Part shown: in pieces, positions 20,826 through 52,433 of the stretch
Layout: each line of letters starts with the position of its first letter
How positions within the stretch are numbered: position 1 is the first letter of the stretch
Assembly: GCA_030524455.1 (NCBI GenBank)
Contig: JAUNGT010000003.1
Location: 1 to 64,000, forward strand
Source of the DNA: Eubacteriales bacterium
Lineage (GTDB): Bacteria > Bacillota > Clostridia > Lachnospirales > Lachnospiraceae
Direction of reading: 5' to 3'
Length of the DNA: 64,000 nt
Notes under the pieces: model-generated
The model's database searches: none
Seen by the model: the letters and a program-made list of their open reading frames with translations, nothing else
Told to the model about the DNA's origin: nothing
Program-made: the position numbers and the translations under genes

Positions 20826-21574
20826 TCATTCTTTCTTAATCTCGTCCATATATCCAGCTGTTATAATGCCTGCTGGCAGGGCTACAATAGCAATTCCCAC
20901 AAATGACGAAAGCATAGTTACAATACGCCCTGTGGTAGATACTGGGTATATGTCCCCATAGCCCATAGTCGTAAGGCTGACCGTAGCCCAATATATAGCT
21001 GAAAAGAAATTATCAAATGTATCCGGCTCAACATTAAAAATAATCAATGCGCATATAACAATATACGCAGCAGCCAGCACACATACCGCTAAAAGCGGCT
21101 CTTTTTGTTTCCTAATCACATTAGAAATAACTGTAATACTTTTAGAGTATCTCACAATCTTAAATACTTTAAATACCCTAAATGTGCGCAGCAATCGAAA
21201 AAGTTTTAAAATTTTAAATCCAGATGCTATTATTGTGAATGTTGGAAGTATAGCTAAAAGGTCAATGATAGCCATAGGCGTAAAAGGATAAATAAGGAAT
21301 GGTTTTACCCCCCCCCCCAAACGTTTTTTCGTTTCTTGGTATTACCTCTTGCTGTCCCTAGTTTGTAATCTGCCGTTAGGAAACGCAGCAGGTAGTCAAT
21401 AACAAAAATACTGGCAGTTATATAGTCCACTGCCAAAAATAAAGAATTTGTTTCTTTGAACGCCAGCGGAATAAGACTAATAACAATAGCGCACATCATA
21501 ACCACGTCGTAAAGCCTGCTTGGCTTGTCGTTTCCGTCCGACAGTTCTATTACCTCAAATAACCGTTTTCTCAT
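20826..21574 (-). pseudogene. Voltage-gated K+ channel split by a frameshift in a G11 tract
   Basis: Two adjacent frames make one six-helix channel. The first (21305-21574, 89 aa) holds S1 and S2. The second (to 20826) holds S3, an arginine/lysine-rich S4 (FKILKLFRLLRTFRVFKVFK), S5, the pore with selectivity filter TTMGYGD, and S6. They meet at a run of 11 G (21308-21318). A 12- or 9-G tract would restore one frame of roughly 250 aa. The start overlaps the repressor stop as ATGA. It could be phase-variable, use -1 frameshifting, or reflect a sequencing error. Confidence 0.88.
21308..21318 (-). repeat. Homopolymeric G11 tract inside the channel gene
   Basis: Eleven consecutive C on the plus strand. 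This is the only tract of this length I saw in the window, and it sits exactly where the channel frame breaks between the S1-S2 and S3-S6 halves. Such tracts change length by slipped-strand mispairing. Confidence 0.9.
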
Positions 21575-21789
21575 TCTGTACTATCTCCTATATTATCCAA
21601 TTCCAGAATTTTATCAGCAGATGCGTTAAGCTCTCTGCATATTTTCGCCAGTGTTACAGCGCTCGGTGTAAGCTCGTTGTTCTCCCAGCGGCTTATATCT
21701 TTCTGATAAACTTGCAGGCGCTCTGCAAGTTCTTTCTGCGTCACGCCTGCGCTCTTTCTGGCTTTTTTGATATTCCCGCCTAAATTCAT
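21571..21789 (-). CDS. Xre/Cro-type helix-turn-helix repressor
   Basis: 72 aa consisting of one HTH_3 domain (IKKARKSAGVTQKELAERLQ, QKDISRWENNELTPS). It lacks a C-terminal peptidase or dimerisation domain. It overlaps the 32-aa gene upstream (ATGA) and the channel gene downstream (ATGA), so the three are translationally coupled. It is the best candidate to bind the palindrome at 22138-22157 and keep lysogeny. Confidence 0.88.
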   Translation of the reverse strand: MNLGGNIKKARKSAGVTQKELAERLQVYQKDISRWENNELTPSAVTLAKICRELNASADKILELDNIGDSTE

Positions 21790-21884
21790 GCCTTACCTCT
21801 CTTTTCTCTCGCCCTCATTATTAAAGCTATCATCAATTTTACCAGTCCTACGGCTACTAAAAAAATGCCTAACTTTAAAATCAT
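21786..21884 (-). CDS. 32-aa membrane micropeptide
   Basis: Reads MILKLGIFLVAVGLVKLMIA, then IMRAREKRGKA. One hydrophobic helix is followed by a basic tail. It ends in an ATGA overlap with the repressor gene, which argues that it is really translated. No family recognised. It may anchor, sense or accompany the channel. Confidence 0.55.
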   Translation of the reverse strand: MILKLGIFLVAVGLVKLMIALIMRAREKRGKA

Positions 21885-21927
21885 GCTCTTTACTCGGCTT
21901 TGGGTTTGTGTTATATTTTGAGTAGGA

Positions 21928-21946
21928 GGCGGGCTTTTTGCCCGCC
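21928..21946 (-). other. GC-rich hairpin between the two micropeptide genes
   Basis: Perfect 7-bp stem GGCGGGC / GCCCGCC with a 5-nt loop. No T-tract follows on the minus strand. It could modulate mRNA stability or translation within the operon. Confidence 0.5.
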
Positions 21947-21953
21947 CTCGGCT

Positions 21954-22070
21954 CTAACCAATTAGCTTATCTATTATGATTAGTGCCGTTCCTACGATTA
22001 AGTCTATCAGTGCATTTGCCGCCAGCACTTGCCATTTGATAGGCTTTTTCTTTTGTTTTTTCTTACCCAC
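21954..22070 (-). CDS. 38-aa membrane micropeptide
   Basis: GTG start followed by GKKKQKKKPIKWQ and a hydrophobic helix (VLAANALIDLIVGTALIIID). A strong basic N-terminus suggests an inside-positive single-pass protein. AAAGGAG lies upstream, somewhat far from the GTG. It is first in the lysogeny-side operon. Function unknown. Confidence 0.5.
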   Translation of the reverse strand: MGKKKQKKKPIKWQVLAANALIDLIVGTALIIIDKLIG

Positions 22071-22134
22071 TTCCTGCCGTTTCTCCTTTCCAGTGCTTTA
22101 CACTTATTTGCTTTGTTCTCCTTTCCATGCTCTA

Positions 22135-22163
22135 ATTATATACCTTTTTCGGTATATTGTCAA
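22135..22163 (-). promoter_or_regulatory. Perfect consensus promoter with embedded operator palindrome
   Basis: TTGACA (22158-22163), 17-bp spacer and TATAAT (22135-22140) on the minus strand, matching the sigma-A consensus at every hexamer position. The spacer holds ATATACC-N6-GGTATAT (22138-22157), a perfect 7-bp palindrome overlapping the -10. This fits autorepression by the Xre protein encoded downstream. Confidence 0.88.
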
Positions 22164-22193
22164 CGCTTTTCAATCATATTTTCCAGTTTATAG

Positions 22194-22242
22194 GCAAAAA
22201 AATTGAGGGTTGACAGCCCGTAAGCCGCCCACCCTCAATTTT
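22194..22242 (-). terminator. Terminator after the endolysin gene
   Basis: Perfect 12-bp stem AAAATTGAGGGT / ACCCTCAATTTT with a 20-nt loop and a T-run on the minus strand, starting 2 bp after the endolysin stop. It separates lysis from lysogeny transcription. Confidence 0.9.
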
Positions 22243-22243
22243 C

Positions 22244-23704
22244 CTACGCTAAACGTGTTGCACAGTCAAGGCTTATCCAGCCTGCGCCGCTTTTCAGCTT
22301 GCCCCAGCCTGCCGTACTTCCCTTGCCCGCTTTAACTTCCGTAATGGTAAATACACCTATACCCGTATGCTCTCCCGTCTTTGCATAATCCGTCCCCGCG
22401 CCCGTTCTGATATTAAGGTCTAATATATCTACTTTAACCTCAAACGGCACGCTCTCTGCTTGCGGTGTTTCCTGCGGTACTGCTGCCTGTTGTGTTCCTA
22501 CATACTTTTTATAATATGCCTCGCCATACTCTGCCCGCTTTTTCTGTACCACTTCGCTCTGGTCTGCTGGCTTTTCAAATTCCAGCAGCACGGCATCAGA
22601 GGCAGCCCGCACGCTCTCTGCGTCCTTTAAGGTGCTGATAACGGATTTATAGCCTTGCAACTCGTCCCACAAAAAGGCAAGCTGCATATCCAAACTACCG
22701 ATAGATGCGCCCACCTTTTTTGTATAATCAAACAGCGCTTGCTTTCTGGTGTAGTACGTCCATTGTGCCAGCCCGTAGCCCGCCTTGTCATTTACAAAAT
22801 TACTGTAACTGCCATTATCCACCGCAGCTGTATACTCTGCATCTGTCATATTAAGGCTCTTGTTATAGCTGTTTTGCAGATTGCAGGAATTAAGCCCGCT
22901 TTCCGCATACAGATTACCCATTAAGCCTGCCACTGCATAGGCATTTAAGCCCTTGCCTGCCAGATAGTCCCAGATAACCTTTTCTGTGTTGGTATTCTGT
23001 ACCATGTTGCCTGCTGCCGCCTTGCTGTATACTGCCTTACCGTCCCAGTCGTACACGGTGTAACCGTCCGTGCAGACTTTCTTTGCATTATCCAGAGAAG
23101 CATAAGCCCCTATCTGGCTCTTTGCATCTTCCCAGCTCTTGCGCACTCGGTATAGTTTATCTGTCTGATTGTTGCCAGCAGATGCAGCGCCGCTTACCAG
23201 CTGTTTAAATTCGTCCCATGTATGCGCTGTAGTGTTATATACATACGGGTTAGGGCAAATCTTCCCCGTAACGTCGTAATGCCTTATAACATTCGACGCA
23301 GGCACATTGTACTTATCCATTAAGTATCGTGTCAGCTCTGCCGCAGCCTCTACCGTTGCGTCCTCAAAATACCAGTCCTTATCTGTCGCACCCAGACTGG
23401 CTGTGTTTTTCTTCCTTACGCATAACTCAATACCGATACTGTTAGCATTTCTGCACTCGGCGTGCTTATAGCTGCCCGCCCCGCAGTGCCATGCTATATT
23501 TTTATCCTCAACACTCTGCCAGATAGCCCCGTCAAAGTCTACAAAATAATGTGCCGACGCATTTCTATTGCCGCCTGCGTAATACTGGCAATTCGCCTCT
23601 GCGCCGCCCAATGCGCCTACATAATGTATAACAATGTACTTGATACGGGAAATATCGCCCGCATTAAAATTGTATCCGCTTATCAGTTTGTTTATATCTC
23701 TCAT
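22244..23704 (-). CDS. Modular endolysin: amidase, lysozyme-like domain and SH3
   Basis: 486 aa. Residues about 20-165 form a zinc N-acetylmuramoyl-L-alanine amidase (amidase_2: IKYIVIHYVG, SAHYFVDFDGAIWQ, VIRHYDVTGKICPNP). A short region (about 185-235) resembles a peptidoglycan-binding linker. Residues about 240-370 match phage tail-lysozyme domains (AVAGLMGNLYAESGLN, GLAQWTY). The last ~65 residues are an SH3b-type wall-binding domain (LNIRTGAGTDYAKTGEH). There is no signal peptide, so release depends on the adjacent holin. Two catalytic domains in one lysin would cut both peptide and glycan bonds. Confidence 0.88.
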   Translation of the reverse strand: MRDINKLISGYNFNAGDISRIKYIVIHYVGALGGAEANCQYYAGGNRNASAHYFVDFDGAIWQSVEDKNIAWHCGAGSYKHAECRNANSIGIELCVRKKNTASLGATDKDWYFEDATVEAAAELTRYLMDKYNVPASNVIRHYDVTGKICPNPYVYNTTAHTWDEFKQLVSGAASAGNNQTDKLYRVRKSWEDAKSQIGAYASLDNAKKVCTDGYTVYDWDGKAVYSKAAAGNMVQNTNTEKVIWDYLAGKGLNAYAVAGLMGNLYAESGLNSCNLQNSYNKSLNMTDAEYTAAVDNGSYSNFVNDKAGYGLAQWTYYTRKQALFDYTKKVGASIGSLDMQLAFLWDELQGYKSVISTLKDAESVRAASDAVLLEFEKPADQSEVVQKKRAEYGEAYYKKYVGTQQAAVPQETPQAESVPFEVKVDILDLNIRTGAGTDYAKTGEHTGIGVFTITEVKAGKGSTAGWGKLKSGAGWISLDCATRLA

Positions 23705-24918: not shown

Positions 24919-25311
24919 CTATGTAGTGGTATTTATATTTGCTATTGCGTCCATGATACTTTCAAACATTTCCGCAATCGCTCCCATGATGATAAACTGG
25001 TTTCCCTCTGCCGTAATCTGCTGTTCAAAGCTATCTGCAATCGCTCCCATGACTACAAGATTATTTTCTACCAACTCCTGCTGCGAAAGGCTGTTGCAGT
25101 CTGCAAGCTCTTTTTGATACTGTGCATACTCTTTCAGCGTTAGTGCCGCCTCTTCATACGTCCATACAGTTATGCTATCGCCGTCCTGCTGTTCTTTTGT
25201 TTCCTGCTGTATATTTTTCCTCAAATATACGCAAAATGGGCTTGCCGTTGTATCAATCTCTTTCGGCTTTTCTGCCTGCGTTCCCTCGGTTTTTCTCCAC
25301 TTTAGCTGCAT
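24919..25311 (-). CDS. Phage protein of unknown function overlapping the RT gene
   Basis: 130 aa. An N-terminal part (LKWRKTEGTQAEKPKEIDTT) is followed by helical segments with two copies of an (V/I)MGAIA-(D/E)-xFE motif (about 86 and 108). It overlaps the last 59 bp of the reverse transcriptase gene in another frame. Its position beside the RT raises the possibility of a DGR accessory protein, but it does not look like the four-helix Avd family. A tail-associated role is equally possible. Confidence 0.6.
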   Translation of the reverse strand: MQLKWRKTEGTQAEKPKEIDTTASPFCVYLRKNIQQETKEQQDGDSITVWTYEEAALTLKEYAQYQKELADCNSLSQQELVENNLVVMGAIADSFEQQITAEGNQFIIMGAIAEMFESIMDAIANINTTT

Positions 25312-26365
25312 CGTTCTTACTCCTTTCCCTCTTGGCTACAAATTTCTTTAATTTGCCTATATTTACATATGGTCTTATGTACTGTGCATAACTGCCGAAT
25401 GTATCCGTATGTTTGATATAGCCCATGTAGCTTATCATTCCCTGCGCTCCCTTTATTGTAGTGTGCTTTCCTACTTTCTTCGCCTTACGCATGATGCGGA
25501 TAAATATAGATTTTCTTAAAATTGTCTTTTCCCGGTAAAACTGCCAGCCCATAAAGTCAAGCGGTCTGCCTTTTCCTTTATATTCAAATCTGAATACCTG
25601 CCAGTTTTCCTTTACTTTCAGCTTAAGATTGTCCCTCAAATACTGCTCAATCGCCTTACGTGCTTTGTGCAGTTCCTTCTTATTCCTGCCGAATATTACT
25701 ATATCGTCCATATAGCGCATATAATACTTTGCTTTCAGTTGCTCCTTTATGTAATGGTCTAACGGTGTCAGCATAAAGTTAGCAAACCACTGGCTTGTAT
25801 AGTTCCCCAGAGGCAATCCCTTTTCGCAGCCGTCGATCACCTTGAATATCAGTTCTAAAGCCTGCCAGTCCTTTATTTTTGTCTTAAGCATTGTTTTTAA
25901 TATTTCCTTATCCACGCTCTCATAAAAATGCTTAATATCCATTTTGAACACATATTTTGTGTTCTTCACGTCCCGGCGCAGCCATTTTTCTATACGCTTT
26001 TTCCCGTAGTGTGCGCCTCTTCCCGGAATACTGCCGCAACTGTACTCGTACATAGGCGCAGTAAAAATAGGCTGCAATACCTGTATAATACAATGGTGTA
26101 TTATCTGGTCGTATTTAAAATGCGGTTTCCTTATCCGGCGTACTTTGTGGTGCGTCCCCTCATTCACGATGCACGGCGTATCAACGTGCGGCTTATATGT
26201 CCCGTTCCTCAAAATTTGTTGTATTCTCTTTACGTGCGTGTCCATATCTTCCAGCACTTCCCTTACGTCTTTTCTGCTTCTCTTCCGCTTGCTGGCGTTC
26301 ATAATGGCAGCTTTTATATTTTCCTCGCTGGCTATCTTCTCCATAAGGTTTTTATAGGTTTTCAT
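25253..26365 (-). CDS. DGR reverse transcriptase
   Basis: 370 aa. RT palm with motif A KMDIKHFYESVD (about 141-152), the DGR-type motif GLPLGNYTSQ (183-192) and the catalytic YMDD at 218-221, plus a thumb with LDFMGWQF. The SQ-containing motif 4 separates DGR enzymes from group II intron and retron RTs. It copies the TR RNA with errors at adenines. No maturase, endonuclease or CRISPR partner is attached. A basic C-terminal tail (about 330-370) may bind RNA. Confidence 0.95.
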   Translation of the reverse strand: MKTYKNLMEKIASEENIKAAIMNASKRKRSRKDVREVLEDMDTHVKRIQQILRNGTYKPHVDTPCIVNEGTHHKVRRIRKPHFKYDQIIHHCIIQVLQPIFTAPMYEYSCGSIPGRGAHYGKKRIEKWLRRDVKNTKYVFKMDIKHFYESVDKEILKTMLKTKIKDWQALELIFKVIDGCEKGLPLGNYTSQWFANFMLTPLDHYIKEQLKAKYYMRYMDDIVIFGRNKKELHKARKAIEQYLRDNLKLKVKENWQVFRFEYKGKGRPLDFMGWQFYREKTILRKSIFIRIMRKAKKVGKHTTIKGAQGMISYMGYIKHTDTFGSYAQYIRPYVNIGKLKKFVAKRERSKNDAAKVEKNRGNAGRKAERD

Positions 26366-26717
26366 TTTGACTTATTCTCCTAAAAGGTTTTCACTATTTC
26401 CATGTTACTAGCCCTTACCTTTTGCGGTTGTATTTTCACTCGCCAAATGGTTAGCACTGTTTCAAGTGCCTGCGGTGTAGGGTAATAGGGTACTTGGTTA
26501 TTGTTCCGTCAATTAAATAAGTTAAGCCCAGCCCGTAGTTCCAATTCGAGTTAGAAAGCGCATTGTTCAAATTCAAAGCGCACCCCACGTGCAAGCCGTT
26601 ATTGCCATTGCTGCCGAAACGCGCAAAGCAGCCCGTCAATGCGTACCCTAAAACCCCTAAATTTATTCCCAGCCATAAGGATAAGCGGGGGAATACTCCC
26701 CCGTTCCCCCTATGCAG
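26366..26717 (-). ncRNA. DGR template RNA region
   Basis: About 350 bp of non-coding sequence between the target gene and the RT gene, same strand, containing the TR (26517-26630). In known DGRs the TR and flanking sequence are transcribed as the RNA used by the RT. Exact RNA ends cannot be read from the sequence. Confidence 0.75.
26517..26630 (-). repeat. DGR template repeat (TR)
   Basis: 114 bp aligned without gaps to the VR at an offset of 222 bp. On the coding strand it has 24 adenines. Eleven of these differ in the VR (complements of 26518, 26523, 26536, 26539, 26540, 26546, 26564, 26572, 26573, 26590, 26600), while the other 90 positions are identical. It has many AAC/AAT codons in the target frame, the codons with the broadest outcome when A is mutated. 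Confidence 0.97.
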
Positions 26718-26726
26718 CTACGCTGC
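26714..26726 (-). other. Small hairpin just after the VR
   Basis: GCAGC-GTA-GCTGC on the minus strand, about 13 bp past the VR end and overlapping the target stop codon. Some DGRs need a hairpin or cruciform at this place for retrohoming. The stem is short, so this is a candidate only. Confidence 0.4.
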
Positions 26727-28343
26727 TAAAGGTTGCTCACAAGTCAAGCCCAGCCCGAAGCCCCAATACGAGTTAGAAAGCGCATAGTTCAAAAGCAAAG
26801 CGCACCCCACGAGCAAGCCGTAATTGCCATTGCTGCCGAAACGCGCAAAGCACTGCTGTGACGTAGAAAACCAAGCGCCGTCCGGTATATATGTACTGTC
26901 GCTGCCGGATACTGTAGTAGGTAACAACCCGTATTCGCTCATATTGTGGGCGCTCTGATAGCCGCCGCTCGTCCCGGATAGTCCGAAACTCATAGCTACA
27001 TACCCACTGCCGCTTGTGCTATATGGTCTGCACATTTTTACACCATATTTGCCTGTGGTATTATAAACAAGCCCCTGCATCAGTTTCCAGATGTTGCCCC
27101 AGAGGTTTTCGCAATGAAAAACTTTTACCACTTCCGACGTGCCTACGCCCTTGCCATAAAACTGCCCGTATTGGTTGCCAGTTCCCGTTTTTAGATAATT
27201 AGTGCTGCTACTGCTCTGCCCCGTATATCTTCCATACCCATATGCCGCCTGCACATCATCGTTGAGTGCCATAAGCCTAAGTAAATCCCATATAAGCGCT
27301 ACCCTGCTCCATGTGTCGCACTCCCATAAATCGCCGTTTGCCTGCGCATACGTAAGCTGCGTGTTTCCTGCTACCGTATTGCACGGTGTTAAGCCGGATA
27401 TAGAGCGTATTTTACTGCTCACATTTGCCCCGTCGTAGATAGAACGTGCAAACCATTCCATTATGCTGCCGTCCTCTCTCTGGTGCGCATACGCCTTGAA
27501 ATCATCTGTCAGCTGGATATTGCAGACTTGGAAATACTCGTATGTATCGTCCTGCCAACGTTTTACCCAGCACGTGGGAAATAATGCCATTGCGTTGCCC
27601 TCGTAGCTGCTGTTCGCTACGTCGCTTGCCGTACCGTCTGCTTTAAGTGTGTAATCATCTGGGTTAAGCTCGTAGTCTATTGTGCCGTCATATTTCAGCA
27701 TTACTGGCTTATTTTCCTTTACAAACCATGCATTAGCCCATTCCTTTAAGTCCAATGCGCCCGTCGTTGTATCGAGCGTTACCGCTCCCATACCTACTGC
27801 CATATCTGTAGCAACTAATCTTGTTGCCGGGTTGCTGTCGCCCTTTGTCCTCTTGTAACCGTATAAGATATACTCCTGCGGTGTAAATTTCGCACGGTTT
27901 TTCACTGCGTAACTGTCGTTATAGATTTGCAGTCCTGCTGCCCGGTTATAGTGTCCGCTGTCGGAATAAGGGAAAGCAGAGATAAAATATTCTGTGTCAT
28001 TTTCCAGCCCGTCGATAATAAGTGCCTCGCTGCTGTATTTCCCCGGCTCCGTATTGTCTATGATAAGCGTACCGTCGTTCTCATCTACGGGATAGCCGCC
28101 TTGTTTCATCACGATTTTTACGCCCTTAACGCTGCATATCCTCTGCCCCTCTATATATGTGTCTGCTGGCTCTGTAAATTTCAGTTTAGCGCCGCCGTCC
28201 ATTGCCATTACGCTAAAAGCCTGCATATCCTGCGGCGGTATCCCGGCTGCTATACGTGTTGCCGTTTCGTCCAGATTTTTTGCAGCCTCTTCTACTTTAC
28301 CTGCTGTTTCATCAATGATATATTGCGCCTCTGCCCAACTCAT
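26718..28343 (-). CDS. DGR target: tail-tip receptor-binding protein with C-type lectin-like end
   Basis: 541 aa. A short N-terminal helix region (AQYIIDETAGKVEEAAKNLD) probably attaches to the tail. A middle beta domain follows (about 40-180), then a C-terminal module (about 240-541) of the FGE/C-type-lectin kind used by DGRs. The VR encodes residues about 497-535. Compared with the TR, Asn codons have become Tyr, Leu or Gly, His has become Leu and Tyr has become Phe or Cys, all in expected surface-loop positions around conserved GCAL and ALSNS. It overlaps the upstream tail gene by 4 bp. Confidence 0.92.
   Translation of the reverse strand: MSWAEAQYIIDETAGKVEEAAKNLDETATRIAAGIPPQDMQAFSVMAMDGGAKLKFTEPADTYIEGQRICSVKGVKIVMKQGGYPVDENDGTLIIDNTEPGKYSSEALIIDGLENDTEYFISAFPYSDSGHYNRAAGLQIYNDSYAVKNRAKFTPQEYILYGYKRTKGDSNPATRLVATDMAVGMGAVTLDTTTGALDLKEWANAWFVKENKPVMLKYDGTIDYELNPDDYTLKADGTASDVANSSYEGNAMALFPTCWVKRWQDDTYEYFQVCNIQLTDDFKAYAHQREDGSIMEWFARSIYDGANVSSKIRSISGLTPCNTVAGNTQLTYAQANGDLWECDTWSRVALIWDLLRLMALNDDVQAAYGYGRYTGQSSSSTNYLKTGTGNQYGQFYGKGVGTSEVVKVFHCENLWGNIWKLMQGLVYNTTGKYGVKMCRPYSTSGSGYVAMSFGLSGTSGGYQSAHNMSEYGLLPTTVSGSDSTYIPDGAWFSTSQQCFARFGSNGNYGLLVGCALLLNYALSNSYWGFGLGLTCEQPLAA
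26739..26852 (-). repeat. DGR variable repeat (VR)
   Basis: The 3' coding end of the target gene, 114 bp, 103 identical to the TR. All 11 differences are at TR adenines (coding strand). The GC-rich CGGGCTGGGCTT element near the 3' end is a likely initiation-of-homing sequence. Homology stops abruptly at 26852. Confidence 0.97.
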
Positions 28344-41899: not shown

Positions 41900-42253
41900 T
41901 CACTCTTCCCGCAGCGCCTCTAGCCTGCTTTTCTTTCGTTTTGCAGCTGGTACTAAGTCGGTCAGCTGCTTTATGACCGCTGCATAATTTTTGCTTAAGG
42001 CTATGTATGTTTCTGCCTCTGGGCTTTTCTTTGTCCCGTACTGGTTCTCACCGTTCTTATATTCGCTCGTCCAACCGTCCTGCTCTATGGTTTCCTGCAA
42101 GTCGTCCAACTCCACGCTCATAAATGCAGCCTTTTCTATCAGCGGCGTTACTAAGTTTTTCTTATTCTCGTCTAAATCCTTAAAAATCTTCTTAAGTCTG
42201 TTTTTCTCGGACTTAATGCGCTGTTCTTTTGTCTTTTCCGTCTTTGTTGCCAT
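41900..42253 (-). CDS. Terminase small subunit (P27-like)
   Basis: About 117 aa. Start at 42253 (MATKTEKTKEQRI) is chosen over an upstream ATG (42292). LKKIFKDLDENKKNLVTPLI and SPEAETYIALSKNYAAVIKQ match the P27 family. It recognises the packaging site and recruits TerL, 6 bp downstream. Confidence 0.88.
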   Translation of the reverse strand: MATKTEKTKEQRIKSEKNRLKKIFKDLDENKKNLVTPLIEKAAFMSVELDDLQETIEQDGWTSEYKNGENQYGTKKSPEAETYIALSKNYAAVIKQLTDLVPAAKRKKSRLEALREE

Positions 42254-42359
42254 TCCTTTTACCCCGCTTTCCTCTCCTGCGCCCCACCACACCCCCTACA
42301 CCACGCCTGCGCGTACCCGCAGGGTAATTTTAGGGTATCCCCCTCGGTATTTTCCCCCT

Positions 42360-42659
42360 TTAATTATTTTTTTGAATAGGGGGGACTATGCGCCCGTCTG
42401 CATCAAATCCGTACCGCAGTTGCGGTGTGCGTTTATGATGCTCTTTGTTGTGGCAGTCTTGGCACAGCGCCTCTAGGTTATCCCAGTTAAGCGTTATGTT
42501 CGTGTCGTTAATGTTTGCTCTGGTTATGTAGCGCTTGTGGTGCGCCACCTTTGCAGGCTCTCCGCAGCGCTCACAAATATAATCTTGTGACATTAAGTAA
42601 GCGGCTCTGGTATTCTCCCATGCCGCCGATAGATAGAAACTCTTAGCCCATGCTTTCAT
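42360..42659 (-). CDS. HNH endonuclease
   Basis: 99 aa. Zinc-binding CERCGEP and CQDCHNKEHH pairs surround the HNH core (KVAHHKRYI ... NWDNLEALC). HNH proteins directly before the terminase genes are needed for cos cleavage in HK97-type phages. Gap to terS is 106 bp and could contain cos. Confidence 0.92.
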   Translation of the reverse strand: MKAWAKSFYLSAAWENTRAAYLMSQDYICERCGEPAKVAHHKRYITRANINDTNITLNWDNLEALCQDCHNKEHHKRTPQLRYGFDADGRIVPPIQKNN

Positions 42660-42688
42660 ACTGTCCCCGCTCCTTTCCCTTTTGTATT

Positions 42689-42716
42689 CCCAGCGCCCTA
42701 GATTTCATGCGCTGGG
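42689..42716 (-). other. Hairpin upstream of the HNH gene
   Basis: Perfect 8-bp inverted repeat CCCAGCGC / GCGCTGGG with a 12-nt loop. It lies in the leader of the packaging operon, 30 bp before the HNH start. A 21-codon reading frame begins in it. Function unclear. Confidence 0.4.
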
Positions 42717-42737
42717 TAGAGGCTAAAGAATGAAAAC

Positions 42738-42800
42738 AAAAAAGAGTAGGCTACTGCTGCCGCATCACGGCTAAGCTATCGCCTACTCCCTACTCTTTTT
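42738..42800 (-). terminator. Terminator between early and late regions
   Basis: AAAAAGAGTAGG pairs with CCTACTCTTTTT across a 37-nt loop, and the left arm contains a second overlapping GAGTAGG copy that offers an alternative stem. A T-run follows on the minus strand. The two alternative pairings suggest a regulated stop before the late genes. Confidence 0.7.
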
Positions 42801-42867
42801 CATGTTACCATTGTACCGCTTTCAATTTCCCATGTAAACACCACGATTTTACCATTACTTTACCATG

Positions 42868-43047
42868 CTATGTTATCCTCGCACTGCCACACTTTTCGCA
42901 ATACTTTGTACGCAGTGCGCATGGTGTACCGCCCGTATACCATGACTTGATATATTTCTCCTGCACATTTCCGCAACTTAAGCATCTTACCTTTGCACGC
43001 TCTATTACCTTATCCGGCACTCTTCTTTGTTCATCATGTACCCACAT
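42868..43047 (-). CDS. 59-aa zinc-ribbon protein
   Basis: MWVHDEQRRVPDKVIERAKV, then RCLSCGN and KYCEKCGS. Two CxxC pairs 25 residues apart predict a zinc ribbon. AAAGGA precedes the ATG. Located between the ArpU-like regulator and the terminator of the early region. It may bind DNA or RNA polymerase; no family assigned. Confidence 0.65.
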   Translation of the reverse strand: MWVHDEQRRVPDKVIERAKVRCLSCGNVQEKYIKSWYTGGTPCALRTKYCEKCGSARIT

Positions 43048-43048
43048 A

Positions 43049-43558
43049 TCATTTTATCCTTTCCTCGTCAATTCCCCACAATAAGACTGATAGCTCGTTT
43101 ATGATAGCAGTTACCCAGCGCCTCGGCGTATTCTTTCCCGTGTCTAATTCCTCTGCTATCGCTGCATAGTCCCAGCCCTGCATAAAATACATTTCAAAAG
43201 CCTTGTACTCTATCTCCCTGCCCGCTACCCTGCGCCTATGCTCTATCTCTTCTACCGCCTTGTCTATGTGCGCCGTCATAATCAGAGTTTTAAAGCGGCT
43301 GCGCCTCACGCTCTCTAAGTATGTCCTCTGCTGTTCGTCGGTCATTCCCTTAAGTTCTAACTGTTCGCCGTCGCTTATTGCGTTCTCGATATGAAAAACG
43401 GCATCACGGTAGCATTTCATAAGCGTAAAAGTATTGTGGTACTTGTCTTTCTTTCTGTCCTGCTCTTCCTGCTTTTTGTACTCGGCTACTGCTGCCTTTG
43501 CCGCTTTCTGTATCAGCGCCTCTACCGCTGGCGTTACTTCAATCATTGTTTCCTGCAT
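43049..43558 (-). CDS. ArpU/RinA-like late transcription regulator
   Basis: 169 aa. The C-terminal half resembles a sigma region-4 helix-turn-helix (FEMYFMQGWDYAAIAEELDT, then GKNTPRRWVTAIINELS). Such proteins end the early region of many Firmicute phages and switch on the packaging and structural operon immediately downstream, as here. Confidence 0.78.
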   Translation of the reverse strand: MQETMIEVTPAVEALIQKAAKAAVAEYKKQEEQDRKKDKYHNTFTLMKCYRDAVFHIENAISDGEQLELKGMTDEQQRTYLESVRRSRFKTLIMTAHIDKAVEEIEHRRRVAGREIEYKAFEMYFMQGWDYAAIAEELDTGKNTPRRWVTAIINELSVLLWGIDEERIK

Positions 43559-43580
43559 CTGTGCCGCCTCTCCTTTCCCA

Positions 43581-43919
43581 CTAAAGCCCTTTTACCCATA
43601 TAACCGCCCCTTGCGGGTGCTTATATGGTATCGGTTTTTGATATTTCACATAATTTTCAAACACCCATGCATAAGGTACGCTATAAGGCAGACTTTCATA
43701 GCCAACCTCTATACGGTGCTTTTCTCTGCTCTTTTCGTACTGTTCTTTTGTAAGCTCTATGCAGTCTACTATATCCACTTGCCCCATAATATGACTGCTG
43801 CCGCTTTGGATTAAATATATTGTGCCTCTTTTCCTTGTCCTGCTGCCTCGTATCTCCCAACTTTTTAAACCGTCTAAAATCAGCTTTAACCATTTTTCTT
43901 TAATTATCAGCCCGTCCAT
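43581..43919 (-). CDS. ASCH-domain protein
   Basis: 112 aa from the ATG at 43919 (MDGLIIKEKWLKLILDGLKS, then WEIRG). The ASCH/PUA-like fold is indicated by the K-x-WE-(I/V)-R motif and the GTIYLIQSG strand. These proteins bind RNA or nucleotides; the target is unknown. Overlaps the previous gene by 20 bp. Confidence 0.82.
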   Translation of the reverse strand: MDGLIIKEKWLKLILDGLKSWEIRGSRTRKRGTIYLIQSGSSHIMGQVDIVDCIELTKEQYEKSREKHRIEVGYESLPYSVPYAWVFENYVKYQKPIPYKHPQGAVIWVKGL

Positions 43920-44448
43920 AATTCGCCACCCCGCTTTCGTATGCCATAACGAGTGCTGCCCGCAGGCTGTCTGCCGCATCATTCCTGCGCTGTATCCTAT
44001 CTGGGCTTGTCTGCCTTATATGTTCTAAATGGTCGCTCTCTAAAATCTCTGCTATCTTTTCTGCTGCCTTTTGGCTGTATGTAACGGCTCTAAGCTCGTC
44101 AGCGCCGCCCAGTGCGTTTATCTCATACACTGCATAATGACTGCTGCCGTATTCCCTCACTTGCCAGCTGAAAACACGCCCTTTAATCTCTATCGACTGC
44201 ATATTATCCGCTACATTCCTGCATACAGTCCCTGCGGTATCAAAAGCCCCGCCCAGCGCCCGCATAGCCGTTGCAGCAATATTTGTAAAAGCCTCTGCAA
44301 CTCTTGTGGCGGCTGTTGCTAAGTCCATATAGCTTATTTGTTTGATTGCCTTTTTCGCAAGCCTACGCTGCTTTCGCTTATCCAGTTCTAAAGGTGGGTT
44401 TACTCCATGCAATTTTTTATACCTCTTTTTCCACTGTCTATAATTCAT
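43900..44448 (-). CDS. Phage early protein of unknown function
   Basis: 182 aa. A basic N-terminus (RQWKKRYKKLHGVNPP, KRKQRRLAKKAIKQI) is followed by an Ala-rich helical region and a small alpha/beta part (FSWQVREYGSSHYAVYEINA). No family recognised. Overlaps its neighbours on both sides. Confidence 0.6.
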   Translation of the reverse strand: MNYRQWKKRYKKLHGVNPPLELDKRKQRRLAKKAIKQISYMDLATAATRVAEAFTNIAATAMRALGGAFDTAGTVCRNVADNMQSIEIKGRVFSWQVREYGSSHYAVYEINALGGADELRAVTYSQKAAEKIAEILESDHLEHIRQTSPDRIQRRNDAADSLRAALVMAYESGVANYGRADN

Positions 44449-44626
44449 TCCGTTTTACCTCGCTTTTCTCTTTCCTTTTTCTCTTACAATCTTGACATAA
44501 ACATTGTTTTCCAATCGTCCAGCCGTCCTGCCGTGCAAGATAAGCAGCATCGCCTTTTGACACGTTACCGCTCCAATACATCATAACTCCGCATTTTTCA
44601 CAAATTACACCCCGTACAATCGGCAT
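44438..44626 (-). CDS. 62-aa zinc-binding protein
   Basis: Start at 44626 (MPIVRGVICEKCGVMMYWSG). CEKC near the start and CLCQDC near the end form a probable zinc site, followed by a basic tail KRKRKEKSEVKR. Overlaps the preceding gene by 29 bp and the next by 11 bp. Confidence 0.62.
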   Translation of the reverse strand: MPIVRGVICEKCGVMMYWSGNVSKGDAAYLARQDGWTIGKQCLCQDCKRKRKEKSEVKRNEL

Positions 44627-44858
44627 TTTGCTTTTCCTCGCTTTCCTGCTTAATCTCAATGCGCCTGCTGCCCCGCTGCTGTATGATTGCCTCAACGTGA
44701 AGATAGGCAGGCAGCATTACTACGCTGCCCGCTCTAAGCTGGTACTCAATACTATTTTTCATTTTTTGGTAGTCCTCTGCCCTCGCTACCATATCGCAGC
44801 CTATGAAAATCGTTATTTCCTGCTGCTTATTCTTCTTTTTCCGCTGCCGTCTGTTCAT
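44598..44858 (-). CDS. Small early protein of unknown function
   Basis: 86 aa. A highly basic N-terminus (NRRQRKKKNKQQ) is followed by an alpha/beta segment (ITIFIGCDMVARAEDYQKMK). No recognised family. Located between parB and the 62-aa zinc protein. Confidence 0.5.
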   Translation of the reverse strand: MNRRQRKKKNKQQEITIFIGCDMVARAEDYQKMKNSIEYQLRAGSVVMLPAYLHVEAIIQQRGSRRIEIKQESEEKQNADCTGCNL

Positions 44859-44915
44859 TTCCCGCCTCGCTTTCTGGCATTACCTCTGGGTAATCTTGTA
44901 TTTTCATCCGCCCCT

Positions 44916-46013
44916 TTATCTGCCGTCGCTCTCAACCAGAATTTCTTGCAATTTATATAAATTATCCTCGCTTACGTCCTCTGCCCTCTCCATAAGGCAG
45001 CAAAGAGTATAACGCACCCATTCCAACTGCCCCCAACTATCCTGCGGCGGCTCTGTAGTGTCCGTTTCGGACACTTTCGCAATAGCGTGTACTGCTGCCG
45101 CTGCCGCATCTTTCGCCTTTTCCATAGCCACTGCCATATTATCTACATACCGCTTAAGCTGTCTTGCGTTCTCTGCCTCTTCCTCTGCTTTTTTCTGCTT
45201 GTCTAGGGCATCTGCTACGGCTTGGTCTGCGTCTATTTGTGCTATCTCTGCGTCTTTTGCTGCCTTATCTGCTTTTTCCCGTGCTTTTGCCGCCACCTGT
45301 TCTGCTACTTTCTGGGCTATTTCTTTTGCCCTCACGTCCTCGCCTGCTGCCGCTGCCGCTGCTATTGCTTTCTGGTCGTCCTCTGGCAACTTTGCAGCCT
45401 CATAAGCAGCGGTAATACCCATATTGCCACTCTTAAGCTGTTCTTTAACCTCTGGTGTGGCGTTATTGTTGATGCTCTCCATTCTGGCTACGTTGGTGCT
45501 GCTCTCATTCAGCATAGCTGCAATCAAATCACGCATTTTACCTTGTATCTCTAGCCCGTCCTCTTCCTTTGCCCGCATCAGCGCCGCTTTTGTACGCTCT
45601 ACTAATCTGGTTTTCTCATATGCCGTAAGCGGCTGCGTGTATCCGTTGCCAGCCAGCAGCCGCAGCTCATACATTGCCTCGCTCATATCCATGTAGCGGT
45701 AAAGCACTTTTTCATACTCTTTGTGTCCCCGCTCCCAATTCAGAATATTTGCGGCATTGCGTCTATGCCCGTCGATTATGAAATACTCGCCCTTTATCCT
45801 CGCAAGTACCGTGGGCTGCTCCTGCCCTACGTGTAAAAAGCTATCTGCCAGTTCCTCTACGTTCTCTAATTTCTGGTGCGTATTCTCTGGTGCTGCCTTT
45901 ACCTCATACGGGCTTAAATAAATTTCTTTGTAGCCCTCTGTCGCCGTAGGCGCTCCCGCTGCCTTTGTCTTTGCGTTCAAAATGTCTTTTAATCCAAATT
46001 TTTCCTTTGCCAT
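44916..46013 (-). CDS. ParB-family partition protein
   Basis: 365 aa. The N-terminal ParB/Srx domain has a box II-like FIIDGHRRNAAN (CTP/parS-binding region). A helix-turn-helix follows (LIAAMLNESSTNVARMESIN, then GITAAYEAAKLP). A long Ala/Glu/Lys coiled coil (about 205-310) is unusual for plain ParB. It lies 356 bp downstream of parA with one small gene between. Confidence 0.88.
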   Translation of the reverse strand: MAKEKFGLKDILNAKTKAAGAPTATEGYKEIYLSPYEVKAAPENTHQKLENVEELADSFLHVGQEQPTVLARIKGEYFIIDGHRRNAANILNWERGHKEYEKVLYRYMDMSEAMYELRLLAGNGYTQPLTAYEKTRLVERTKAALMRAKEEDGLEIQGKMRDLIAAMLNESSTNVARMESINNNATPEVKEQLKSGNMGITAAYEAAKLPEDDQKAIAAAAAAGEDVRAKEIAQKVAEQVAAKAREKADKAAKDAEIAQIDADQAVADALDKQKKAEEEAENARQLKRYVDNMAVAMEKAKDAAAAAVHAIAKVSETDTTEPPQDSWGQLEWVRYTLCCLMERAEDVSEDNLYKLQEILVESDGR

Positions 46014-46035
46014 ATTCCTTACCTCGCTCTCTGGC

Positions 46036-46365
46036 TTATTCGCCTATCAGTAGTTTAATTGCCTCTATAGCCCTTTCCGTTGCCTCGTTGCATTTCTTTT
46101 CCCACTCCTGCGCCCGTTCTGGGTGCTGCTCTCTTCTGTACTGCCTATATATTACTCTCCACTCTTCCTGCGATACCTGACGTTTATATAGCCTATACTT
46201 CCATTCCTCGCTAAAATACGTTCTTTCCTCGTCTGTCTGATTTAGTGCGCCTTGTCTTGCGAAAACTTTTGACGGGCTTAGCACTCCCAGCAGCCCTTTA
46301 AATCCTGCTGCCCTTATGCTCTTTGGGGCTTTCGGCTTTTTCCTTTGCTGTAATTCTTCATACAT
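46036..46365 (-). CDS. Unknown protein between parA and parB
   Basis: 109 aa, strongly charged (EELQQRKKPKAPKSIRAAG, EEWRVIYRQYRREQHPERAQ). Helical, no signal or membrane segment. Four bp after parA, so co-translated. It may be a partition accessory. Confidence 0.55.
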   Translation of the reverse strand: MYEELQQRKKPKAPKSIRAAGFKGLLGVLSPSKVFARQGALNQTDEERTYFSEEWKYRLYKRQVSQEEWRVIYRQYRREQHPERAQEWEKKCNEATERAIEAIKLLIGE

Positions 46366-46369
46366 TGCC

Positions 46370-47158
46370 TTACCGTCCCTTTCCCGTGTACTGCGTCACA
46401 AACTTCTTGTATCCCTGCGCTGCCCCGCAGCACGGGCTATACTCATAGATTGCTTTTTGCATGAAAGAACATTCCGCCACTTTCTTGGAATATCTGATAA
46501 TCCCCAGAATGTTATATACTCCCTGCTCTTTCAGCCACTCCACGCCTGCGCTTTCCCCGTCCGTATTCTGGTATGACGTAATCAGAACGCCTGCCAGCTT
46601 GATAGCTGGGTTAAATTCCTTTATGTCCTCTATCTGCTCTGCTACAATGTCCAGCCCCTCTAAAGCGTAATTATCCAGCTTTACGGGTACTATAACCTCG
46701 TCCGTGATTGCCAGCGCATTTAAGACGTTAAGCCCTATGTCTGGCGGGTTATCTATAATGCAGTAATCGTATTTGCCCCATACGGTGCAATCTCCGTAAT
46801 ATTCGATTTTTGCATTTTTCAGTTGCTCATACCGTGATAACTGGTTTTCGTTTTCCTCTTTGGTTAAATTCCATGTAGCCCCAAACAATGACATATTAGC
46901 CGTTACAATGTCTATGCCCTCGTAATCGGTCTGCTGTATTATCTCGTCTGGGTGTACCCAGTCCCCACTAAGTAGCCTTGTTATCGGTGCTACGCTCTCT
47001 GCGTCGTATCTACCGTATGCCTTGCTTAAATTGCCCTGCTTGTCGTTATCCAGCAACAGGACTTTGTAGCCCCTGCGGTAAAGCTCATACGCCATATTTG
47101 CCGCTGTAAAGGTTTTGGCTACGCCGCCCTTTAAATTCAAAATGCTTATTGTTTTCAT
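46370..47158 (-). CDS. ParA-family partition ATPase
   Basis: 262 aa. Deviant Walker A KGGVAKT (10-16), the A' box VLLLDNDKQGNLS and Walker B YCIIDNPPDIGLN. No N-terminal HTH, so the type Ib/Soj-like form. With ParB it would segregate a low-copy replicon. Confidence 0.93.
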   Translation of the reverse strand: MKTISILNLKGGVAKTFTAANMAYELYRRGYKVLLLDNDKQGNLSKAYGRYDAESVAPITRLLSGDWVHPDEIIQQTDYEGIDIVTANMSLFGATWNLTKEENENQLSRYEQLKNAKIEYYGDCTVWGKYDYCIIDNPPDIGLNVLNALAITDEVIVPVKLDNYALEGLDIVAEQIEDIKEFNPAIKLAGVLITSYQNTDGESAGVEWLKEQGVYNILGIIRYSKKVAECSFMQKAIYEYSPCCGAAQGYKKFVTQYTGKGR

Positions 47159-47184
47159 TCTATGCCTCTCTTTCTGCGCCGCCT

Positions 47185-47595
47185 CTAGCGCATTGTGATT
47201 GTTTCCCGCTCTTCTGTAAGCTCTTCTGGGTGCAATAAATAGCGCTCTATCAGTTCTGCCGCCAGCTGCCAGCTATAGCACACTGCTGTATAATATCCCT
47301 GCTGCCGCAAAAACTCTAACCAGCGTTTCTGATTTTCCGTTGTGGTGTTCCTGCCAGCCTTAAGCTCTATGTATAGCCCGTGGTATCCTGCCCGTACTGC
47401 TGGTAGCACAACGTCTGGCACTCCCGCTTTAACGCCCTGCCTCTTAAGCGCCGTGGCTGTCGCCTTGTCCCTTTTGCCGCCATTCGGTACATGATGCAGA
47501 TACTCTAACTCTGGCATACGCCCTAACTGGTACGCAGCCCAGCTAAATAGTGCCTCTTGGTGTCCGCTCTCGTCGTCCAGTCTAAAGTTTCTCAT
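47185..47595 (-). CDS. VRR-NUC domain nuclease
   Basis: 136 aa from the ATG at 47595 (MRNFRLDDESGHQEALFSWA), which overlaps the previous stop (ATGA). VRR-NUC signatures: GVKAGVPDVVLPAVRAGYHG, LYIELKAGRNTTTENQKRW, with D and E-x-K catalytic residues. Probably processes replication or recombination intermediates. Confidence 0.9.
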   Translation of the reverse strand: MRNFRLDDESGHQEALFSWAAYQLGRMPELEYLHHVPNGGKRDKATATALKRQGVKAGVPDVVLPAVRAGYHGLYIELKAGRNTTTENQKRWLEFLRQQGYYTAVCYSWQLAAELIERYLLHPEELTEERETITMR

Positions 47596-47744
47596 GTTCC
47601 CGCTCTCTCCTTTCCGTGGTTTTCCTCTCTTTGGTTCTGTGCCAGCACGTCTGCTCTGCATAGGTCGTAATACTCACACCATAGGCAGCAGTGCTTACAG
47701 CCCTTTCCTCTCTGGAATAACCAGTATAAAAGCCTCTGCCTCAT
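47592..47744 (-). CDS. 50-aa cysteine-rich protein
   Basis: MRQRLLYWLFQRGKGCKHCC then LWCEYYDLCRAD. Five cysteines in CKHCCLWCEYYDLC suggest a zinc finger. Coupled by ATGA overlaps to the genes on both sides, strong evidence that it is translated. No family assigned. Confidence 0.6.
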   Translation of the reverse strand: MRQRLLYWLFQRGKGCKHCCLWCEYYDLCRADVLAQNQREENHGKERAGT

Positions 47745-47899
47745 TCCTTGCGCCCTCTGTCGTCGTTATCGTTCCAGCGTTGCTGCCGCTCCATAGCGTC
47801 CACTGCTACGCTAAATGCCAGAAATCCCAGCGCAAACAACACTAAAAACACACATACTATGATTGCTACTACAATGGCTATAATTTTGATAATCTGCAT
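47741..47899 (-). CDS. 52-aa single-pass membrane protein
   Basis: MQIIKIIAIVVAIIVCVFLV, one transmembrane helix, then a charged tail QQRWNDNDDRGRKE. GGGGGGAT precedes the ATG. Starts 2 bp after the Rep stop and overlaps the next gene (ATGA). Confidence 0.6.
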   Translation of the reverse strand: MQIIKIIAIVVAIIVCVFLVLFALGFLAFSVAVDAMERQQRWNDNDDRGRKE

Positions 47900-47900
47900 T

Positions 47901-48665
47901 TTATCCCCCCCTTTCTAATTTGACTAACGTATATCTGAAATAGCCGTACCCGTAATACTCTGGGCTATGTACTCCCTTGCTTATACTGTTCTTGTCTACG
48001 TAGTATCCTTTTATCGGTCTTGCCTCTGCTTTAAAATATTCTCTGTCAGAAATTATGCTGTACTCTGGCTCTGGTCTTACTAAGTTCTTGCTACAGTTCC
48101 AGCGCTTGCCTTGTAGCGCCCCGTCCTCTGTCTTTCTGTGTGTACCCGTGTATTTAATCAAATATGCTGCCAGCTCTGCATACTGCCCGCTGTCGTCCAG
48201 AGGAAATACTTTTACTCTGTTATGTCCCTCATACGCCTTATACCAGCACTTCTGTAAAATCTTTGTATCTATCTGGTTTATAACTAAGTGGTGATGTCTT
48301 GCCCCTTTCTTGCCTATCTCCATTACGTGTATGTATTTAAGCTCTAGCCCAGCCTTTTTATATTCCTTGCGACACTCCCGTAGGAATATATCTATATCTT
48401 TCCTCATCTGCTCTCTGGTTCTGTCTGGCTCTCCCTTTTTCCGTATGTAGTCCAGTATTAAATGATAGTCGCCATAGCCATAGTTAGCATTTATCAGAAT
48501 ACGCAGCTTTCTTTCTGCCTGCCTTGTGTTTATTTTCTCCTGCTGCTCTGTGGTGGGCTTAACCTTATCCCCCCTCTTTATCCCCTGCTTTTTATATCTG
48601 CTTGTAAAATAGCGCTCTATCTCTATGGTTTTACCAGCCCTTGTAATCCTCTCAACGTATGGCAT
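47901..48665 (-). CDS. HUH endonuclease, rolling-circle Rep-like protein
   Basis: 254 aa. HUH metal-binding motif HHH at 124-126 within GARHHHLVINQ. A plausible catalytic tyrosine helix, ELAAYLIKYTG (about 168-178), resembles Rep proteins of rolling-circle replicons. The basic N-terminus may bind DNA. It probably nicks an origin and could start phage or plasmid-form replication. Inverted repeats just upstream (48705-48846) are origin candidates. Confidence 0.78.
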   Translation of the reverse strand: MPYVERITRAGKTIEIERYFTSRYKKQGIKRGDKVKPTTEQQEKINTRQAERKLRILINANYGYGDYHLILDYIRKKGEPDRTREQMRKDIDIFLRECRKEYKKAGLELKYIHVMEIGKKGARHHHLVINQIDTKILQKCWYKAYEGHNRVKVFPLDDSGQYAELAAYLIKYTGTHRKTEDGALQGKRWNCSKNLVRPEPEYSIISDREYFKAEARPIKGYYVDKNSISKGVHSPEYYGYGYFRYTLVKLERGG

Positions 48666-48704
48666 ATATTTTTACTCCTTTATAGGTCTATCTGGTCGGA
48701 AAGC

Positions 48705-48846
48705 TAATACTTTTATCAAGTGATAAAGCAGGCTTTCTGCCCGCATTTTTCTTGATATTTTCGCCATACAGTGATATACTGTGTTTAGGTTGTAAAAGCT
48801 GTATAGCTTAGCCCCTATGGTATTCCCGTACCGTAGGGGCTTTTTA
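48705..48846. other. Cluster of inverted repeats upstream of rep
   Basis: Four dyads within 142 bp: TTTATCA-AG-TGATAAA (48712-48727), ACAGT-N5-ACTGT (48768-48782), AAGCT-N4-AGCTT (48796-48809), and a 12-bp near-perfect stem GCCCCTATGGTA / TACCGTAGGGGC (48811-48840). An 83-codon frame crosses this stretch but overlaps the neighbouring gene and is not gene-like. Position before an HUH Rep gene makes this the best origin candidate. Confidence 0.5.
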
Positions 48847-48847
48847 C

Positions 48848-49336
48848 TTATCCATTTGTAAAATGTTTCTCTGCATACTCGTAAGCCTCTTTGTAGGGCT
48901 TTTGGCAACGGTAACTCGTGCAAGTGTGCAGCCTGCTACCTCTGCAAAACTCGCAGGCGTGTAGCTTTGCGTACCCGTTCAGCCATTTCCTGCGGTCATA
49001 TTCCAATTTGTAGCGCAACTTGTCTGCGTTCACTGCCTCTATGCCTGCTGCATCTGCCGCCGCTATTTCGGCGCTCATTCCCTCGCTTATTCCGTACTTA
49101 ACGCCCACTATCACAAAGTCGCAGCTTTTTAGCAGCGCTAAGCCTGCTGCCATGCCTGCCGCCCGTTCCTCTGGCTTGTCCTCATTTAAGCACTGCGTCA
49201 TATATAAATGTGGCGTAATTGGCGCTAAGCCTGCCTCTATCGCCTGCTTTGTAAGCGCCTGCGCATAGTCTATATTTCTGTCAAGCTCTGCGCTGTTCTT
49301 TGCCCTATACGGGCTGCATATGTATACTTTTCTCAT
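48848..49336 (-). CDS. Nucleoside 2-deoxyribosyltransferase-like protein (DUF4406/DUF7768 type)
   Basis: 162 aa. KVYICSPYRA at the start, GLAPITPHLYMTQ, and CDFVIVGVKYGISEGMSAEI resemble the nucleotide-binding fold of deoxyribosyltransferase-like phage proteins. The C-terminal 40 residues add CEFCRGSRLHTCTSYRC, a probable zinc site. Activity unknown. Confidence 0.72.
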   Translation of the reverse strand: MRKVYICSPYRAKNSAELDRNIDYAQALTKQAIEAGLAPITPHLYMTQCLNEDKPEERAAGMAAGLALLKSCDFVIVGVKYGISEGMSAEIAAADAAGIEAVNADKLRYKLEYDRRKWLNGYAKLHACEFCRGSRLHTCTSYRCQKPYKEAYEYAEKHFTNG

Positions 49337-49647
49337 TACTGCCCGCCTTTCTGTGCTTCTACTCTGGCAAGCTCGTGTTCTACCAGATGCTCTACCATGT
49401 GCATTAAATCATTTGTGCTTTTTTCTGTCATAAATCCGCACAACTCGCAACAAGTGGCAAAACCGCAGATTATATGATAATGCGTTACTACGTCCTGCTC
49501 TGTTTTCATGCTTTTAAGCCCGCTTATGAGTGAAGTTAGATTTATGACTGCCCGCTCGCCTAATTCGCCGCCTGCGCCCTCTATCGGTATCTCTATGCGT
49601 GTTGCCTGTGGCTCTCCTTTGCTGTTTACTATGGTTTTGCTTCTCAT
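49336..49647 (-). CDS. Unknown early protein overlapping the OB-fold gene
   Basis: 103 aa. N-terminal beta part (TRIEIPIEGAGGELGERAVI) and a C-terminal segment with CGFATCCELCGF and histidines (DLMHMVEHLVEHE), possibly metal-binding. Overlaps the upstream gene by 134 bp in another frame. Confidence 0.6.
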   Translation of the reverse strand: MRSKTIVNSKGEPQATRIEIPIEGAGGELGERAVINLTSLISGLKSMKTEQDVVTHYHIICGFATCCELCGFMTEKSTNDLMHMVEHLVEHELARVEAQKGGQ

Positions 49648-50365: not shown

Positions 50366-50621
50366 TCTCTACTATTTCCTTTCCGCTGTGGTTTTTCAGC
50401 ATTTCTATTGCCCGCTGGTAGCACGCTATCTCTGTGTCCTCTTTTACTTTGCAGATGCAACGCCCTTTTCTATCGCCCTCATACTCCCAGATTTCAATAA
50501 GGTTATTGCCGTATATGTCAAAGTGCATATGATACCTTAAGCTATGCCTCTTCTGTAGCGGTCTGTATATCTGGTAGAATTTATGTATAAGCGCCCTGCG
50601 TTCCTCGTCGTTCTCTTCCAT
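50346..50621 (-). CDS. Unknown early protein
   Basis: 91 aa. An alpha/beta protein with RYHMHFDIYGNNLIEIWEYE and CICKVKEDTEIACYQRAIEM. Overlaps the OB-fold gene by 20 bp. No family recognised. Confidence 0.6.
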   Translation of the reverse strand: MEENDEERRALIHKFYQIYRPLQKRHSLRYHMHFDIYGNNLIEIWEYEGDRKGRCICKVKEDTEIACYQRAIEMLKNHSGKEIVENEKRAG

Positions 50622-50668
50622 GCGCTGCCCTCACTTTCCCAAAAGTATTACTTATTCCTGAATAGGTA

Positions 50669-52426: not shown

Positions 52427-52433
52427 TTACTGC

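Follow-up and report, generated by a model that had tools for sequence, protein, structure and literature searches.

Evidence for a recently active diversity-generating retroelement without a detected Avd gene in a siphophage-type prophage

One of the closest known systems to the element described here is the diversity-generating retroelement (DGR) of Bordetella phage BPP-1, which comprises mtd, avd, the template repeat (TR) and brt. Avd is required in that system, and the spacer following TR recruits the complex of Avd with the reverse transcriptase (RT) and primes cDNA synthesis (PMC12875486); the mechanistic DGR work considered here rests on BPP-1. In DGRs of this Avd-dependent type the avd gene is usually located between VR and TR. 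A DGR hairpin with a GC-rich 7-10-bp stem and a 4-nt GRNA loop has been reported 4-34 bp after VR (PMC3240598). In a study of C. clostridioforme prophages, phrog_1423 RTs were tabulated in two and Avd was named in one (PMC11318856). Three Butyrivibrio phages, Arawn, Idris and Closwp03, have the same DGR layout as our locus and different TR and VR sequences; their DNA is ~74% identical over 82% of the query that we took from the variable protein (VP) gene to the RT gene, and their whole records, as our locus, gave no Avd match. The RT of Arawn and Idris was published as a hint of prophage immunity (Friedersdorff et al. 2020, PMC7372960), and the word 'retroelement' is missing from the main text of that paper.

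The window, that is, the whole stretch of 64,000 nt analysed here, comes from a probable member of the Lachnospiraceae and contains a prophage in which the VP gene, TR, the spacer, the RT gene and a small ORF follow one another on the minus strand (Table 1). A virion-protein gene and the genes for a Gp37-like tail protein, Dit and the tape measure lie upstream of the element, and those for a holin and an amidase downstream. Capsid, protease, portal and terminase genes were also found in the prophage, which is flanked by the EF-Ts and acetate kinase genes. The initial annotation had proposed an active-looking DGR at 26517-28343, a span that covers TR, VR and VP but leaves out the RT, although its text named it. 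The best explanation of the locus as a whole, to which we give a probability of roughly 0.93, is a siphophage-type prophage DGR with no avd found, whose RT is predicted to rewrite VR at adenines and so to vary the tip of a probable receptor-binding protein.

Table 1. Features of the DGR locus, with positions numbered from the first nucleotide of the window
Feature	Position	Strand	Remarks
Variable protein (VP), distal tail protein	26718-28343	-	541 aa
VR	26739-26852	-	Codons 498-535 of VP; 12 adenine-bearing codons outside the IMH, 7 changed relative to TR
GC-rich core and IMH-like 3' end of VR	26739-26757	-	Differences from TR fixed among relatives (window and 10 relatives)
Candidate target hairpin/cruciform	26686-26703	-	Perfect 7-bp GC-rich inverted repeat with 4-nt loop, CGGGGGA-GTAT-TCCCCCG
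TR	26517-26630	-	Flanked by the VP and RT genes
Structured core of the TR-RT spacer RNA	26374-26484	-	23 pairs, 10 changed on both sides
DGR reverse transcriptase	25253-26365	-	370 aa; YMDD and SQ motifs
Small ORF	24919-25311	-	130 aa; 59-nt overlap with the 3' end of the RT gene

When aligned on the minus (coding) strand, TR and VR formed an ungapped direct repeat of 114 nt with 11 mismatches, and an independent repeat search recovered the same pair (112 nt, 91%), bearing out the repeat pair given in the initial annotation. All 11 mismatches fell on the 24 adenines of TR (hypergeometric p 3.9e-9), the changes from TR to VR being A>T in six cases, A>G in four and A>C in one. The two 3'-most A>G changes are situated in CTTAACTTA of TR, corresponding to CTTGACTTG of VR. 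At these two sites the 3' end of VR was always TTGACTTG or CTGACTTG in the window and 10 relatives, whereas TR was variable and not always A, some relatives having G at the first of the sites or T at the second. Because VR was constant and TR variable there, both sites were left out of the mutagenesis count. As judged from the aligned repeats, they are the fixed differences expected of a DGR between the IMH of VR and the IMH* of TR, and not mutagenesis; fixed VR/TR differences of this kind at the 3' end were found across the window and the 10 relatives, the IMH function being predicted. The earlier count of 11 adenine mutations thus stood as to the adenines and not as to these two sites, leaving nine of nine changes at adenines (21 adenines in 105 nt, p 9.8e-8), which is the safer figure.

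The remaining changes correspond to N508Y, H511L, N517L, N520Y, N526Y, N528G and Y529F. Codon enumeration indicated that no A-to-N substitution in any TR codon can create a stop codon, and that the adenine-bearing codons could encode ~2.5e12 proteins. When the prophage's own genome was searched with TR for remote VRs, the matches besides TR and VR themselves were five of 14-19 nt (E 2-4), which we attribute to chance.

VP is made up of an FnIII-like domain (residues ~34-158) and a C-type-lectin/FGE-like domain (~209-537). In the predicted structure, the C-terminal C-type-lectin domain, which bears VR, matched the solved DGR variable proteins TaqVP and Mtd, in agreement with the C-type-lectin-like end claimed for the target beforehand. 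TaqVP (5vf4, from the Thermus aquaticus DGR) is 15% identical to VP and is presumably not a phage tail protein. The VP gene is located downstream of the Dit and Gp37-like tail genes, and VP has a tail-family match; VP is probably the receptor-binding protein, with VR at its likely exposed tip. The corresponding proteins of Arawn and Idris differ at nine of 36 VR residues, yet both records name the host strain DSM 3071, so that the effect on host specificity expected in the initial annotation is no more than possible.

The SQ motif is a hallmark of DGR RTs. The RT frame of the window is open, and both the YMDD and the SQ motifs announced in the initial annotation were present, at residues 218 and 191, respectively. 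The top matches of this RT, by sequence as well as by predicted fold, were to the DGR RT 8ub7, and it is closest to bRT. An NCBIfam scan also gave matches to Drt and retron RTs, all below the cut-off, which would fit an enzyme of phage defence or prophage immunity, the role suggested for Arawn and Idris by Friedersdorff et al. 2020 (PMC7372960). We regard such a role as extremely unlikely, given that a TR/VR pair adjoins the RT, that its best sequence and fold matches are to a DGR RT, and that Arawn and Idris differ from each other at VR within an otherwise near-identical 15 kb. A DGR function is hence an alternative to the published immunity reading of the Arawn and Idris RT.

At the DNA level, the comparison of these two phages was the clearest instance of natural variation. 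Their TRs are identical, as are the 600 nt upstream of VR and the 1,100 nt downstream of TR, and the 13 differences between their VRs all lie at TR adenines (p 8e-11). Between positions 1,817 and 16,972 of Arawn, an interval bounded by neighbouring SNPs, 13 of the 14 SNPs with respect to Idris are inside the 111-nt VR; up to position 18,000 the SNPs number 58, again with 13 in VR. The alignment is free of gaps before 18,447, and 509 of the 656 SNPs genome-wide are concentrated in bins 21,001-23,000. The nearest database protein to VP, P0001, showed a similar pattern, with eight of the 38 VR residues differing and only one of the 503 residues elsewhere. Seven of the eight changes can be reached by A-to-N substitution in a TR codon; the exception, F499L, lies in a codon without adenine. 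Relatives with other VR versions, proposed as a check in the initial annotation, were found in both cases, and the variation confined to VR supported its claim of recent activity.

Eight pairs of relatives with identical TRs were hand-picked from a larger pair comparison, with some loci shared between pairs. Their VRs differed at 124 positions in all, of which 118 were TR adenines and six were not; three pairs of near-identical DNA showed no VR differences. In the diverged pair L065/L044, whose TRs differ at 12 positions, 14 of the 23 VR differences were at adenines and nine were not. F499L and the minority positions of these comparisons are variation off the adenines, which the earlier reading had named as evidence against it. 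Over 39 loci, 639 of 657 TR/VR mismatches were at adenines, a figure from a search scored and filtered for adenine mismatches and so not independent evidence. From the sequence comparisons, we conclude that the element is a genuine, recently active DGR without a detected Avd. One might suppose instead that the DGR has decayed, so that the TR/VR pair would be the trace of earlier transfers and the element itself inert, as the stop codon within the RT of a second DGR of the same genome (contig C35) could indicate; the window RT, however, has an uninterrupted frame in which neither the YMDD nor the SQ motif is damaged, and P0001 is identical to VP outside VR except for one residue, which makes decay highly improbable. 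Arawn, which comes from ruminant samples, and Closwp03, from a cloacal swab of a chicken in South Africa (the L062 and L063 loci), were identical over the 7,552 compared bases including VR, which is surprising for a diversifying VR. A Melainabacteria MAG (L104) had two VR copies upstream of one TR; all nine differences of one copy and all 12 of the other were at adenines.

In the active DGR that we favour, the tail gene ends in VR, and TR, the structured spacer and the DGR-type RT follow in the same direction; the RT is predicted to copy the TR RNA with errors at adenines. By analogy with BPP-1, error-prone cDNA synthesis would be RNA-primed and start at the spacer, and the IMH, together with the hairpin behind VR, would guide retrohoming. 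VR would thereby be replaced by the cDNA, and the tail protein would change at what is likely its exposed tip; again as in BPP-1, this protein may bind the receptor.

Unlike the BPP-1-type elements, the window has no avd gene between VR and TR, a location that is excluded because the gap of 108 nt is too short. PF22296 and PF05635 gave no match at E<=10 in the whole genome (98.4% complete). As a positive control, PF22296 detected bAvd in the VR-TR gap of two Avd-bearing DGRs of related phages, L040 and L041 (E 2e-35 and 2e-34); over 33 records it gave four matches at E<=1, of which only these two were above the cut-off. Among accessory proteins, the search by name covered Avd. Our results support the initial annotation as to the nature of the element as a DGR, its specificity for adenines, the C-type-lectin fold of its target and its recent activity; that annotation had overlooked the absence of avd and counted two IMH sites as mutations. 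Since Avd is required in BPP-1, a working DGR without it needs explaining. The literature matches listed for DGR together with Avd included no report of such an element, in a search that did not reach the likeliest sources (Wu et al. 2018 and Weinberg et al. 2017).

L040, L041 and the group of L195 resemble the window in their TR/VR adenine pattern and DGR RT, but they carry Avd and their RTs are ~29-34% identical to the window RT; the VR-TR gap is 443-458 nt in L040 and L041. In the RT tree, 83 non-redundant rows without Avd at the locus were placed on one side of a branch with 100/99 support, and all nine Avd rows, two archaeal rows without Avd and six more distant RTs on the other. These rows were obtained from 158 loci with an RT match, of which 121 had at least 230 query residues and 100 were non-redundant; loci with split RT matches (L035-L039, L040, L045, L130, L131, L136, L140, L148, L153 and L154) are outside the tree. 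Absence of Avd across the clade was judged by running an HMM built on two Avd sequences over the DNA obtained for each locus and, for 33 records, with PF22296; many viral records are fragments. The median VR-TR gap was 453 nt in 11 Avd loci versus 141 nt in 87 others, in a set of loci biased by the adenine-scoring search. The RT of this clade would act together with its spacer RNA, either unaided or with some further, so far unrecognised partner.

The DGR cassette seems to have been swapped among phages sharing the holin, because phages with a holin 81-95% identical to that of this prophage (L195, L197, L199, L200, L201, L204, L206 and L207) carry an Avd-bearing DGR instead. In another locus, L045 (G048:C33), the RT is broken, the Avd-like fragments score below the cut-off and the spacer matches Rfam RT-14; this locus appears to be an Avd-type DGR in decay.

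The structured core of the spacer RNA was defined on 13 sequences, the window and 12 relatives including Idris, and consists of 111 nt and six helices with 96.3% of cells paired; its covariation was 0.348, as against 0.164 in shuffled and at most 0.121 in slid alignments. The window spacer matched Rfam RT-4 (RF03025) over its full length with 51.6 bits and E 4.4e-8, below the gathering cut-off of 73.5, and RT-18 more weakly; none of its close relatives L001, L004, L007, L013, L075 and L076 had an RT-RNA match at gathering score. In a cross-tabulation of 53 loci, which are related so that the Fisher p values are a guide, RT-18 or RT-4 reached the gathering score in 21 of the 41 loci lacking Avd and in none of the 12 that carry it (p 0.0015), and RT-14 in one of 41 and five of 12, respectively (p 0.0015). 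RT-16 was found in two of the loci without Avd and RT-17 in one. The spacers of L040 and L041, which have Avd, matched RT-14 and not RT-18/RT-4, which the window spacer resembles. A search on six such Rfam RNA names found no paper in the collection searched. A DGR role is now suggested for the orphan RNAs RT-18 and RT-4.

Because the BPP-1 spacer recruits RT-Avd and primes cDNA (PMC12875486), we infer that the window spacer RNA may recruit the RT and prime cDNA without Avd. We give even odds to the broader proposal that a large, mostly clostridial clade of phage DGRs retrohomes with RT and structured spacer RNA and no Avd, RT-18 and RT-4 being its RT-recruiting spacers as RT-14 would be those of Avd-bearing DGRs. 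Should this proposal hold, much of the diversity of phage DGRs would do without Avd, thought essential on the basis of BPP-1, or have something else in its place. A whole RT clade here has no detectable Avd at the locus. Adenine-confined variation of VR is nevertheless seen among its members, two of which are cultured phages with B. fibrisolvens DSM 3071 as their recorded source, and the job of Avd and its replacement become directly testable.

The other explanation for the missing Avd is that the DGR needs an unrecognised protein in its place, either the small ORF at the 3' end of the RT gene or a host protein. A homologue of the small ORF was detected at 101 of 148 RT-bearing loci, in 98 cases at -307 to +38 nt from the end of the RT frame, and at none of 13 Avd loci. 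In genome draws by profile, 11 of 14 distinct small-ORF places adjoined a DGR-like RT, and all 13 viral loci obtained with the small-ORF profile had an upstream RT match (in L181, a 41-residue piece only), the viral query (A7) having been made from six RT-adjacent copies and being biased towards such finds. On the other hand, in L224 and L227 the small ORF directly follows a tail gene and no RT match is present; L209 likewise has the small ORF and no RT match. Two of the stronger DGR-like RTs in a draw of 196 genomes (G103:C7 and G054:C9) had no adjacent profile match, a divergent copy being found later in G054. A C-terminal Phage_tail_APC domain (tail-assembly chaperone) was present in four of eight homologues scanned, and the small ORF was acidic in 61 of 61 representatives, as opposed to Avd, basic in 15 of 15 rows. 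As an Avd substitute, the small ORF was thus strong at the 13 viral loci and weakened by the RT-less copies. A substitute protein of either origin appears rather unlikely to us, and the small ORF is more likely a tail partner of VP, so that the DGR cassette is read as lying between two tail-partner genes. In L227, where an RT match is lacking, the tail protein encoded just before the small ORF resembles VP.

Linkage was also evaluated through neighbouring genes. Of 25 loci selected by the holin, 12 had an RT match (11 below 1e-15, that of L208 being weak), eight had Avd and two had the small ORF, L203 with and L209 without an RT. The head-protein control, with an RT in one of four loci, had too few loci to be used.

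The candidate target hairpin lies 35 nt past the end of VR, just beyond the published range of 4-34, and its loop is GTAT rather than GRNA (PMC3240598). Its stem was identical in 12 of the 39 loci with a TR/VR pair, which are the close relatives of the window, and the loops were GTAT, GCAC, GACT or TTTC; among close relatives a constant stem with a variable loop is the reverse of the BPP-1 hairpin rule (PMC3240598).

Exact repeats between the flanks of the prophage were of only 14-17 nt, and no integrase was found among the prophage ORFs scanned. ParA, ParB and a Rep-like protein are encoded in the region 41900-53000, and the prophage is possibly plasmid-like. The second DGR of the same genome (L066, G000:C35:104000-117000), with no Avd found and one TGA inside its RT frame, had 15 TR/VR differences, all of them at adenines.
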